Origin: Desulfoplanes formicivorans
GTDB taxonomy: Bacteria; Desulfobacterota; Desulfovibrionia; Desulfovibrionales; Desulfomicrobiaceae
NCBI RefSeq assembly: GCF_001748225.1
Contig: NZ_BDFE01000015.1
Coordinates: 549,437 to 613,436, forward strand
Reading direction: 5' to 3'
DNA length: 64,000 nucleotides
In this document: positions 26,718 through 30,208 of the stretch, piece by piece
Numbering within the stretch: position 1 is the first letter of the stretch
Layout: each line of letters begins with the position of its first letter
The notes under the pieces: generated by a model
Told to the model about the DNA's origin: nothing
Databases searched by the model: none
Seen by the model: the letters and a program-made list of their open reading frames with translations, nothing else
Program-made: the position numbers and the translations under genes

Positions 26718-26832
26718 ATGAAGAAAGGCTGCTGGAAGACAGGGCACTTGCGTTGCATGGGTGCAAAGGATATCGTTTTTCACGTAACCCCACCGGACCA
26801 TGCATCTACCGGGCACAACGAGCGAGCTAGCC

Positions 26833-27669
26833 ATGATGACCGAACATGACTGCATTGTTTCTTCCATCCAACATGTCCTCAAGGACTTTCCGGAAATTCT
26901 TGTTGCCACCCTGTTCGGATCGGCGGCTCAGGAACGGATGTCCGAAACAAGTGACATTGACATCGCCATAGCATGCAGACATGCGCTGTCCTTTGAGGAA
27001 AAAATGTCCTTGGCTGCTGCCCTTGAAACGGCAGTACAGCGCAGCGTGGATCTTGTGGATCTGCAGCAGGTTTCAGGTCCCATCCTGCAGCAGGCCCTGG
27101 GTACCGGCCGGGTTATCCTGAAAAAATCTCCAGCGCTTCTGGCCGAACTGCTGAGGAAAATGTGGTACAATCAGGCGGATATGATGCCCCATACCACCAT
27201 GATCATGCGCAAACAGCTTCAAAGGTTTTCCCATGAAGATCAGGTTCTTCTCTCCAAACTGACTTCTCTCAAGCGGTGTGTGGATCGTATCCGGAGCAAA
27301 ACACCTGCAACCCCGGCAGAGCTGCAGGGTGACATGGATCTGCAGGACATCATCTCCCTGAATCTTCAGCGGGCCGTTCAGATATGTGTGGATATCGCCT
27401 CCCACATTGTGGCGGATCTTGATGTGCGTCCACCCATGACCATGGCTGAAAGTTTTGAAAGACTCCGGGAATGCGGCATCCTCTCGGACCATGTTTGTAC
27501 GCGAATGAAAAAAAGCGTGGGATTCCGGAATATCGCAGTACATGACTACTTTTCCATTGATTGGAATATTGTGCACACGGTGTGCACGAACCATCTTGAT
27601 GATTTCAGTACCTTTGCCCGGGAGATTATGCACTGGATGCAGGCAGGAACGCCAGATTCATGTGAATAA
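26833..27669 (+). CDS. single-chain MNT nucleotidyltransferase - HEPN (MntA-HepT-like) protein
   Basis: About 278 residues from ATG 26833 (ATG 26800 is also open; neither has a good ribosome site). The N-terminal half (to about 125) is a minimal nucleotidyltransferase with the GS-x10-DxD motif in FGSAAQERMSETSDIDIAIA. The C-terminal half is an all-helical HEPN/HepT domain with the RX4HXY motif in RNIAVHDYF. In MntA-HepT toxin-antitoxin pairs these are separate genes: HepT is an RNase and MntA neutralises it by AMPylating the Tyr of RX4HXY. Here both are one polypeptide, so cis-modification is possible, though not shown. It lies at the edge of an AT-rich accessory patch. Confidence 0.8.
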   Translation: MMTEHDCIVSSIQHVLKDFPEILVATLFGSAAQERMSETSDIDIAIACRHALSFEEKMSLAAALETAVQRSVDLVDLQQVSGPILQQALGTGRVILKKSPALLAELLRKMWYNQADMMPHTTMIMRKQLQRFSHEDQVLLSKLTSLKRCVDRIRSKTPATPAELQGDMDLQDIISLNLQRAVQICVDIASHIVADLDVRPPMTMAESFERLRECGILSDHVCTRMKKSVGFRNIAVHDYFSIDWNIVHTVCTNHLDDFSTFAREIMHWMQAGTPDSCE

Positions 27670-28087
27670 TGGCGACATGTCCGGCCAGAAGATGTAGCCG
27701 TCATTTTCGGCGAGATGAAATGAAACAGTTTCGACTTGATTTGATAGTTGGCCTTTCGATGGGTAACAATGTATCAGATTAGGTTGAAACTGTTTTTTTT
27801 GTTCAATCAACTCCTCCTCGCAATCCCCTCACCTCAAAGACAGACCAACAAAGATGAAATAAAGGGACATGTTAAAAGTCCGATCATACTGTCGCACGAA
27901 TGCTTCGAGGTTAGATAGCATCAAACAAGTGCTTAGGATGTATTAATTCGCAATAATGCATATGCGATAATGCAGCCGCACGGGGATTATTTGGTTTTTC
28001 GAATGATATTTCGGTGTAGTCGATTGTTAAAGTCTAACCATCAACAAAAACTTTTTATTTGATTGCTAATGATAAATGGTTTGCATA
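27670..28087. other. AT-rich intergenic region with mobile-element debris
   Basis: It contains repeated AAACAGTTTC/GAAACTGTTT inverted elements (27723-27732 and 27786-27795, the second running into a T tract) and the transposase scrap described separately. Base composition changes visibly to AT-rich from here to about 28.7 kb. No intact gene is seen. Confidence 0.5.
27829..27960 (-). pseudogene. decayed transposase C-terminus
   Basis: The reverse-strand frame ending at 27829 reads MLSNLEAFVRQYDRTFNMSL and then YFIFVGLSLR. I recognise this style of ending from DDE transposases of the IS5/IS4 group. Upstream, HPKHLFDAI appears in another frame and stops interrupt it, so the remainder is frameshifted or lost. 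The family is not certain. Confidence 0.4.
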
Positions 28088-28669
28088 TTATTCTCTCTCC
28101 CTTATTAAATCTATCACTGAATTAAACTTGCCTAGCTTTTCAGCTAATATTTTCATATTATTATGTAGATTTTTTAAATTAATATACATGATGCCATCTA
28201 GGTTATTGTGGCCATTTTTGTCTTTTGGGTATCGAAATGTAAATGATTCTTTGTCAATATTAGCAAAATCATGTATAATTTTTGATATGCAGTCTGTATC
28301 TTCTTTTGTTATGTATTCTTGAATTCCTTTGTCAATTTTATTTATGATTTTTTTCATTAATCCATTGGATACACACCATAGATTCCATATTTTGTGATGT
28401 TCAGGAAACCCGCATCCTTCACTCAAAATTATCCTTGATTCTTTAATTATATTTTTGAGATTTAGCTCAATGTATTGTCTGTATAGGAATACTATAGGAT
28501 AAACCAATATATCTTGATCTGATGAAGTTTCAATGACTTTATGGGTTAGCTCTTCTGCAGCTTTTAAGTATCCATTTATATATAAACGAATGGTATCGTG
28601 AGTCCAGTTGAGGCAAGCGTTGCTACCACAATCTTCTCCGAATGAAAAAAGTGAATTATTCATAAGCAT
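28088..28669 (-). CDS. uncharacterised AT-rich helical protein
   Basis: 193 residues, mostly predicted helix, with the pattern YPIVFLYRQYIELNLKNII near residues 57-75 and FRYPKDKNG near 145. These recall a family of uncharacterised accessory proteins with YRHxxELxLK helices; the similarity is from memory and weak. No catalytic RX4-6H motif of active HEPN RNases is found. Codon use is strikingly AT-rich beside its neighbours, indicating recent acquisition. The gene follows the TIKI/TraB-like gene by 47 bp on the same strand, so the two probably form an operon. Function unknown. Confidence 0.7.
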   Translation of the reverse strand: MLMNNSLFSFGEDCGSNACLNWTHDTIRLYINGYLKAAEELTHKVIETSSDQDILVYPIVFLYRQYIELNLKNIIKESRIILSEGCGFPEHHKIWNLWCVSNGLMKKIINKIDKGIQEYITKEDTDCISKIIHDFANIDKESFTFRYPKDKNGHNNLDGIMYINLKNLHNNMKILAEKLGKFNSVIDLIRERE

Positions 28670-28716
28670 TTAGTGCGTTGCGCATAGGGTTTAATGTAAC
28701 CAGCTCGGGGAGTCTG

Positions 28717-29268
28717 TTATTTGCTGGCGTGTTGCGAGTGTTGGGCTGCGCTCAGGTTCGGTTCCCATTTTTTATCTAATATTTGAACATGAAATCCATT
28801 TTCCTCAAGAAGTTTTGGGAATGTTGATAGGTGAGCTGCCCCGCAGACAAACAACATCGGATCGACATAGATCGGTAGAAGTTTCTCAACCCAATATAAT
28901 TCCCTTTTTCTAAAATGAATTAATTTTAATCCTTCCTTGTCATCATTTGGCAATTCGTCACGCCAAGTTTTGTATTCGATATCGCGCTCTCCAAGAATGC
29001 GTCTTTCTTTTCTTATGACTTCAGGTGGATCGCAATATTCATGTGGCAATCCAAGTTCGACAGCAATATCAAAAACTGTGCTTTGAACGATTCCAGCATC
29101 CTCAAGTGCATCGCTACTCATTTCTTCAGCGATAGACTTAATATTGTGCTGTATGCAGAAATTACGAATGTATTCAGAAAATTTTACACAATGTTCAATC
29201 TGAAAAATATGGTAAATTCCTAAGAGGTAAATTATCTTTTTTTGGTCTTTGTCGAAAATTTTGTTCAT
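28717..29268 (-). CDS. TIKI/TraB-superfamily-like protein
   Basis: About 183 residues from ATG 29268, behind GGGAGG. There are spaced metal-site-like motifs of the TIKI/TraB/PrgY/GumN superfamily: GxxH in LLGIYHIFQ near the N-terminus, a paired Glu in KSIAEEMSSD, and a second GxxH in FVCGAAHLSTFPKLLEENGF near the end. The family includes metal-dependent peptidases and pheromone-inactivating proteins. There is no signal peptide, so a cytosolic role is likely. It is co-oriented with the AT-rich gene downstream. The assignment rests on motif geometry only. Confidence 0.6.
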   Translation of the reverse strand: MNKIFDKDQKKIIYLLGIYHIFQIEHCVKFSEYIRNFCIQHNIKSIAEEMSSDALEDAGIVQSTVFDIAVELGLPHEYCDPPEVIRKERRILGERDIEYKTWRDELPNDDKEGLKLIHFRKRELYWVEKLLPIYVDPMLFVCGAAHLSTFPKLLEENGFHVQILDKKWEPNLSAAQHSQHASK

Positions 29269-29353
29269 GTGGTCCTCCCGGTTGATTGTCAAGATAGTGG
29301 CTTAACTCCGACTCCTCAAGTCTGTAGTAGGACCAGTCAGGGATTTGCTGATT

Positions 29354-30208
29354 TTATGGTGTTTTGACCTTCACGAATGAGGCGAACCTGGGCTTGCCGC
29401 TTTGGGAAAACCCGTAGTGCTTGAAGGTGACCACGGCTCCCTTGCGCGGTGGATGACGGCGTTCCTGCATGGAGAATCCCGTGCCCAGGTTGAAGACAAC
29501 CCCGTTGTCCAGCTGCAGGGTCAGGCTGCCCATGAGGCCTGCGTAGCTGCCTTTGCCCGGGGTATGCCCCATAACCACTCCGTCCATATAGTTGATGTGC
29601 TTGAGTTTCACCAGGTGTTGCTCGGATCCGTCCTGATAGGGGATGGTCGGGTCCTTGATGATCACGCCTTCGCCGCCTTGTTGGGCGATGTGTTTGAGAA
29701 AGCGCTGCACATGCTGGTGGCCGGTACAGATTGTCTGGGGGATGATGCGCACATGGTCGGCCTTGTGGTTGGCAAACCAGTTTTGTGCCTTGGCCAGGCG
29801 GGCGGGAAAGTCCCCTGAGGCATGGGGAACTTCGAAAATATTGTACGTGATGTTTTGCCATCCTGAAGACGGGGTTGTGTCCAGGACGGTTGACTGGACT
29901 ATTTCAAAGTTCCCGCGCCCGGCCCAGAGTTCTCCGTCCAGTTCAAACGGAGGCAGGTTGCTCGTAAACCATGAAGGCGCGTGGATGACGGTTCCTTCCC
30001 TGGTGAGCAGGTGGTGACCGTCCCAATAGCCCCGGATGCCGTCGAGTTTTTCGCTCATGTACCACCCGGTTATGTCTTCGTTGCCGCGGTAGGTTGTTGG
30101 GGCCTGAAGCTGGGGACGCGCGACACAGGGGGGGACAAACCCAGTCAGCAGGTATCCGAGCGTGATCACGGACAGGAAAATGCGGAGTACATGGTGGTCA
30201 TACTTCAT
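29354..30208 (-). CDS. exported ATP-dependent DNA ligase (Lig E-like)
   Basis: About 284 residues from ATG 30208, behind AAGGAGG. A signal peptide or membrane anchor (residues about 7-30) precedes a minimal two-domain nucleotidyltransferase. Motif I Lys lies in YMSEKLDGIRGYWDG, motif III is FELDGELWAGRG, motif IV is GGEGVIIKDP and motif V is VKLKHINYMDG, followed by an OB-fold. Lig E-type enzymes are periplasmic and have been linked to handling of extracellular DNA or to competence; that role is inference here. It is monocistronic, and a helicase or Ku partner is absent. Confidence 0.88.
   Translation of the reverse strand: MKYDHHVLRIFLSVITLGYLLTGFVPPCVARPQLQAPTTYRGNEDITGWYMSEKLDGIRGYWDGHHLLTREGTVIHAPSWFTSNLPPFELDGELWAGRGNFEIVQSTVLDTTPSSGWQNITYNIFEVPHASGDFPARLAKAQNWFANHKADHVRIIPQTICTGHQHVQRFLKHIAQQGGEGVIIKDPTIPYQDGSEQHLVKLKHINYMDGVVMGHTPGKGSYAGLMGSLTLQLDNGVVFNLGTGFSMQERRHPPRKGAVVTFKHYGFSQSGKPRFASFVKVKTP

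Follow-up and report, generated by a model that had tools for sequence, protein, structure and literature searches.

The two adjacent genes considered here, gene 1 and gene 2, were probably acquired independently at a variable site, where gene 1 probably starts from a captured IS signal, and they probably do not constitute a module; we place the probability of this explanation, taken as a whole, at roughly 0.62. Both lie in a 64,000-nucleotide stretch of Desulfoplanes formicivorans DNA, which was analysed in full and is referred to below as the window. It is favoured by the lack of the pairing in the other genomes checked, by the different GC contents of the genes and the seam between them, by the fold and motifs of gene 1, by the IS end, by the variability of the site and by the presence of gene 2 on plasmids. 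The merely moderate fold matches, the weak promoter of the IS end, the HEPN-type genes near two gene 1 relatives and the shared neighbours of three others count against it.

Table 1. Positions of the features discussed, numbered from the first letter of the window.
Feature	Position	Strand	Description or basis
MntA-HepT fusion ORF (P0003)	26800..27669	+	Neighbour, outside the two-gene unit; NCBIfam
Gene 2 (P0002) ORF	28088..28669	-	193 aa; intact
GC-rich junction	28660..28760	-	101 bp, 51.5% GC; gene 1 codons 170-183 and the 47-bp spacer
Gene 1 (P0001) ORF	28717..29268	-	183 aa from ATG; intact
IS3-family left end: terminus, leader, RBS and OrfA start	29257..29336	-	Own-genome repeats; L117
ATP-dependent DNA ligase-like gene	29354..30205	-	Pfam DNA_ligase_OB_2 and DNA_ligase_A_M above cut-off

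An earlier note on this DNA had described two genes 47 bp apart on one strand, visibly more AT-rich than their surroundings, and this description is borne out (Table 1). The unit has a GC content of 34.1% against a window mean of 55.5% (sd 4.2, from 1181-bp windows spanning all 64 kb); nowhere is the window richer in AT, the lowest value outside 26.8-29.4 kb being 46.8% in windows of the same size. The two genes nevertheless differ from each other, with 37.3% GC in gene 1 and 29.7% in gene 2, and the GC-rich junction extends into gene 1 codons which lie beyond its conserved domain. Unequal composition and an intervening GC-rich junction suggest a seam rather than a single imported block, and the junction is likely to be a recombination seam. 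Its sequence is not repeated elsewhere in the organism's own genome, as judged by a genome search. An integron cassette was considered and rejected: the spacer is attC-like by eye, but folds no better than shuffled sequences (z -0.14) and has no repeats in the genome. As the closest relative of gene 2 aligns to M3, translation of this gene may begin at the ATG at 28663 instead of 28669. Rfam searches of 27.6-29.5 kb gave only sub-threshold matches of eukaryotic type.

The surroundings are mobile and defence-flavoured, in line with the earlier view of this DNA as acquired. The neighbour then read as an MNT-HEPN gene is a MntA-HepT fusion, with HepT at 146 bits and MntA at 84 bits, both above the NCBIfam cut-off. 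It contains a GSx10DxD nucleotidyltransferase motif (residues 40-54) as well as a full Rx4H RNase motif (RNIAVH, 243-248). Fused MNT-HEPN proteins are described, in the sections of the HEPN survey that concern them (PMC3710099), as typically devoid of the RNase residues; P0003, a single-chain type VII-like protein, is thus unusual in keeping the motif. A 29-nt inverted repeat, imperfect and with a T run at its end (27718-27800), directly follows this ORF and is perhaps its terminator. Between it and gene 2, a decayed transposase was sought on the left flank (27.66-28.10 kb) by six-frame reading and own-genome search, and nothing was found. On the other side of the two genes, the N-terminal stretch of the ligase-like protein resembles, by eye, a signal peptide (compare the exported minimal ligases).

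Under the preferred explanation, to which the above probability applies as a whole, the ligase gene anchors a variable insertion site that has collected two independent genes. A sibling species (G395) retains the ligase gene (75% DNA identity) together with the next gene, and at the homologous site (L046, 2202-3495) an HTH gene and HipA-like pieces (HipA_C, E 2.2e-22) replace genes 1 and 2. The HipA-like gene is split into two overlapping ORFs, and by sequence the pair is a broken HipAB-like one. The site consequently varies within the genus and has held another conflict-type pair.

The decayed transposase reported earlier was correct in part: there is no readable transposase, while the decayed left end of an IS is present immediately upstream of gene 1 and runs into it, the OrfA start being the gene 1 start. 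This 80-bp end recurs at 12 other places in the organism's own genome at E <= 4.5e-5 and at one more at E 0.001, and nearly all of the copies have a GATCCTGC-type terminus as their common starting point. In three of them (C10, C16 and C4), the alignment extends past the start codon into a near form of gene 1 codons 1-4, and they diverge from gene 1 thereafter. In a relative from the same order (L117), the same leader precedes an intact element in which the first ORF matches HTH_Tnp_1 (E 2.5e-15) and the second the rve integrase core (E 2.3e-31), a layout which we take to be that of the IS3 family. The assignment to IS3 rests on this homologous intact element, given that a 32-aa OrfA remnant in another locus (L067) has no Pfam match. 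The window and L117 have in common a TGATCCTGC-type terminus, the leader and the OrfA start; unlike the intact element, however, the window keeps only the end, and the ORF starting there is gene 1 and not OrfA. Since homology to the IS continues through the RBS and start codon into codons 1-4, these parts of gene 1 are IS-derived, and comparison of the copies suggests that gene 1 probably owes its start to a signal captured from the transposase. Relatives of gene 1 begin at about its residue 12.

A promoter-like pair (TTGAGG-17 bp-TATCTT) can be read by eye within the IS end; it is weak, and a consensus scan did not list it at threshold. There is no support for a complete IS or a composite transposon enclosing the two genes, as a PSSM search located no IS end beyond gene 2. 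Nor did an HTH_Tnp_1 search recognise an intact IS copy in the genome, the only match (L112) having no such end within the 3 kb read. Related termini of a second class (GATCCTGCAACAGTTTAGTGGA...) are found in L067, L069, L073, L074 and L075, and L074 (1042-1202) has an element of about 160 bp with both termini facing inward; the elements with these termini are likely to be relatives of the IS, small and non-autonomous.

Gene 1 probably encodes a minimal protein of the TIKI/TraB/ChaN fold, a small and probably cytosolic enzyme, much as the earlier note had suspected in likening it to TIKI/TraB hydrolases. Pfam TraB_PrgY_gumN (PF01963) matches over the C-terminal motif at E 1.6e-4 and 22.1 bits, under the cut-off of 26.8 bits. 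The AlphaFold model, built from 5 sequences (pLDDT 78.8, pTM 0.75), alternates strands and helices and, with moderate support, would contain a parallel beta-sheet core flanked by helices. Foldseek returned nothing for this model at E <= 0.001, its rows being mixed alpha/beta folds. The leading VIA-align rows are ChaN (2g5g; Z 9.0, 150 residues aligned, rmsd 4.2) and HopBA1 (5t09; Z 8.8, 141 aligned, rmsd 4.4), which are to be read as tied, as are any rows within 1 of each other in Z, and as values in a range (8.8-10.7) where the similarity may be no more than a frequently met arrangement, particularly among helical bundles. Other alpha/beta folds follow at Z 8.0 and below. Structures of EreB, Tiki and TraB are missing from the rows listed, which is no evidence against them. 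PADLOC and NCBIfam contained nothing for gene 1; for both genes, searches of PDB sequences with single proteins and profiles gave nothing credible and searches of PHROGs only weak matches.

The two GxxH motifs (G17/H20 and G143/H146) and the EE pair (48-49) singled out earlier are all present and conserved in the family: across 14 sequences (alignment A7, which is without L107, L106 and the degenerate L127; L126 is in A9 only), E48, E49, H76, D80, R122, E123, W126, G143 and H146 never vary, while at least 90% of the sequences have G17 and H20. The family thereby has the His and Glu residues and the nearby basic residue expected of TIKI proteins, described in the relevant parts of the literature as 2His/2Glu residues plus a conserved basic residue, with ChaN and HopBA1 named as relatives (PMC6254334). 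H20, E48/E49, R122 and H146 are the putative counterpart of the TIKI site, matched by order along the fold rather than by superposition, as is the correspondence with RRSP/Bcr135 residues. This conserved His/Glu/Arg/His set is the likeness of gene 1 to the TIKI superfamily (TraB/PrgY/GumN, ChaN, erythromycin esterase, HopBA1 and Tiki). Gene 1 differs from that superfamily in having only about 160 conserved residues with no appended domain seen, and in the family's own invariant H76, D80, E123 and W126; it differs from the 2His/2Glu enzymes in that its first motif is a GxxH with no preceding Glu. The chemistry predicted from fold and conservation together is the hydrolysis of either a peptide or an ester bond.

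Gene 2, which the earlier note left as a helical protein of unknown type, can be placed by model and structure comparison among HEPN-fold proteins. Pfam and PADLOC list no family for it at E <= 1, and NCBIfam gives only matches far below cut-off. For the model (8 sequences; pLDDT 76.8, pTM 0.77), Foldseek ranks the HEPN structure 4nqf at probability 0.98 but E 0.18, with nothing at E <= 0.001. VIA-align places 4nqf first (Z 10.7, 134 aligned, rmsd 4.4) and 2hsb at Z 9.6; judged by their titles, 15 of the 20 leading rows belong to HEPN or HEPN/MNT toxins (Z 10.7-8.8), with the proviso that helical bundles with Z below about 13 may simply share a frequent arrangement. Under the same caution, the model appears to have the four- to five-helix arrangement of the HEPN fold. 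Independent support for the assignment comes from the sub-threshold Pfam HEPN matches of relatives (3 of 10, best E 0.013, none reaching cut-off) and from invariant residues that fit the HEPN survey.

Those residues were read from 17 sequences (alignment A8, without near-identical copies from viral contigs and without the plasmid relative L012, which is close to L010). Ten columns are invariant, including the start Met, and R64, E68, K72, H92, D139, F145 and R146 are among them. E68 and K72 form an Ex3K within the helix 57-81, in agreement with the helix-2 acidic residue within Ex3[KR] that the survey describes in the parts that treat the fold; the same parts count families without Rx4-6H as HEPN still (PMC3710099). 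The Rx4-6H RNase motif occurs nowhere in gene 2. H92 falls between the helices 57-81 and 94-112 and, with R146, corresponds to the alternative site of AbiV and AF0298, in which, according to the survey's account of these two, the motif histidine is lost and a conserved histidine from a helix 2/3 insert is present instead (PMC3710099). On its model and conserved residues, then, gene 2 is an HEPN-fold protein with a putative alternative site at E68/K72, H92 and R146. It shares with AbiV/AF0298 (PDB 2hsb) the HEPN-type fold, the Ex3K, the His in the helix-2/3 loop and the Arg of the loop preceding the last helix; what sets it apart from these, with AbiV compared by its published description, is its FRYP motif and the invariant R64. 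With Type VII MntA-HepT systems it shares the fold class, and one of them, P0003, is 0.4 kb away, but gene 2 has neither Rx4-6H nor a same-strand adjacent nucleotidyltransferase of its own.

Relatives of gene 2 are carried by conjugative plasmids and also occur in viral contigs. The nearest, on a Shewanella plasmid, is 56% identical, and the two differ at 39%, 21% and 63% of codon positions 1, 2 and 3, respectively (pN 0.29, pS saturated); this third-position excess of change indicates that gene 2 has been selected as a protein. In five plasmid examples that were opened, the genes upstream of the relatives differ. Over all the gene 2 loci read, the upstream genes include a DUF6035 protein, an AAA-like ATPase and several small unknown proteins, and there is no constant partner. 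In L009, L010 and L012, enterobacterial plasmids of different species, the relatives adjoin or are near a site-specific integrase gene. In one viral contig (L020, 1118-5564), the relative lies 42 bp after an HNH endonuclease-like gene and a long restriction-methylation-like gene, both named by eye.

It could be argued that both genes are debris, acquired and now drifting without function, with the IS end as a scar. The decay of the IS end and the splitting of the HipA-like gene in the sibling species fit such a history, as does the want of an evident Shine-Dalgarno sequence before gene 2 (a reading by eye). We nonetheless consider it unlikely, because both ORFs are intact and have all the invariant residues of their families, and because the changes separating gene 2 from its nearest relative fall mostly at codon position 3, with the pN and pS values given above.

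Another proposal builds on that of the earlier note, a toxin-antitoxin or phage-defence module of two genes. The HEPN protein would be its toxin or an effector RNase, and the hydrolase of the TIKI fold would be the regulator, either an antitoxin that cleaves or de-modifies the HEPN protein or a protease that activates it upon infection. The short spacing on one strand makes a single transcript likely, and HEPN folds are common among toxins and Abi proteins according to the passages of the survey on such systems (PMC3710099). The check suggested earlier, whether homologues of the two genes co-occur as neighbours, went against a conserved pair. Firstly, among 395 genomes of the phylum searched with each gene (E <= 0.001 for gene 1), gene 1 matched in seven, counting its own genome and one match left out as an XdhC-like protein by eye (L007), and gene 2 in nine, its own included; the own genome alone has both. 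None of seven genomes or records bearing gene 1 has gene 2. Secondly, the partner gene is absent from the fetched flanks of all 17 distinct gene 1 places and all 22 gene 2 places other than the organism's own, a count in which the flanks range from <0.1 to 5 kb, the 22 include near-identical viral contigs, and a gene 1 relative with an internal stop (L107) and a split one (L106) are kept. When both proteins were compared by tblastn with the collected loci, they were co-present only in six loci, all of them this same place, and two gene 1 loci added later (L126 and L127) show no gene 2 relative in their ORF lists by eye. Thirdly, of 72,556 plasmid records, 272 contain gene 2 and one contains gene 1, and that one is without gene 2. 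The 50,697 phage records gave no match to either gene at E <= 0.01; viral contigs supplied nine gene 2 loci and no confirmed gene 1. Narrow literature searches of partial coverage found no description of a TIKI-HEPN pair.

The neighbourhoods of gene 1 relatives were read in loci picked by hand as defence-like, with no statistic attached. A type III methyltransferase and a DarG-like protein accompany the relative in L126, a cytosine methyltransferase and Vsr that in L026, and a DUF4062 protein that in L024. In L002 and L023, an MntA-like gene (PADLOC) and a HepT-like ORF (by eye) lie about 0.5-1.2 kb from the relative. In L004 (1492-3360), the relative is 87 bp downstream of a protein with SEC-C and HEPN_Swt1 domains (Pfam) on the same strand, the only direct adjacency of TIKI and HEPN recognised besides that in the window. 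The latter two cases speak for a module; the missing conservation of the pair, the seam between genes of different GC and the varied genes upstream of the plasmid relatives of gene 2 speak against it. We therefore regard the new type of module as improbable, no toxin-antitoxin pairing having been found, and the sequences compared are best accommodated if genes 1 and 2 were probably brought together by chance, a conserved functional module being unsupported.

The same cases invite a looser variant, a mix-and-match conflict system in which a small TIKI-fold hydrolase would process or silence whichever HEPN protein adjoins it. Its instances would be the window, with one HEPN protein 47 bp downstream and MntA-HepT at about 1 kb, together with L004 and L002/L023, each with different HEPN partners. 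We think this very doubtful, both as a system and in its instances, while allowing that some loose functional link between TIKI and HEPN proteins may exist, given that two kinds of gene 1 locus (L004; L002/L023) lie near HEPN-type genes.

The wider distribution of gene 1 is uneven. In the phylum of a Spirochaetes-titled genome, 17 of 296 genomes matched (E <= 0.001) and 11 were accepted, after G443, G522, G531, G547, G570 and G589 (E 1.6e-4 to 9.3e-4) had been dropped as unrelated or too weak. Three relatives from that phylum (L098, L100 and L102) share two neighbouring genes on the chromosome, which suggests vertical inheritance there and not mobility. In the window's own order, the gene occurs in 3 of 297 genomes, one of them with a degenerate copy (L127), and is accordingly patchy. 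The suggestion that gene 1 is a housekeeping-type hydrolase for stress or small molecules, leaving gene 2 as the only mobile conflict gene, draws on those shared neighbours, as a stable chromosomal gene would have, and is scarcely credible in view of the patchiness and of four of the hand-picked loci with type III or cytosine methyltransferase, Vsr, DUF4062 and MNT neighbours.

Independent acquisition at a variable site can be spelled out as follows. An insertion site beside the conserved ligase gene would have collected two independently mobile genes. Gene 1, with its whole conserved domain retained, is probably transcribed and translated from the decayed IS3 left end, and its product would hydrolyse a peptide or ester bond through the predicted His20/Glu48-49/Arg122/His146 site. 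Gene 2 would probably be expressed by read-through of the IS-driven gene 1 transcript, and its product would most likely act as an RNase or RNA-binding protein, perhaps in single-gene abortive infection or in competition between plasmids.

A two-gene module, tempting as it was, is thus left unsupported, and three statements open to testing take its place: that there is a minimal TIKI-fold family with no Pfam model above cut-off; that there is a plasmid-borne HEPN family, likewise with no Pfam model above cut-off, with a putative alternative active site; and that the RBS and start codon of an IS3-family transposase, perhaps together with its promoter, have apparently been taken over by a foreign gene. 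Should the HEPN family of gene 2 prove active, it would allow RNA cleavage by the alternative His/Arg site to be tested cleanly.
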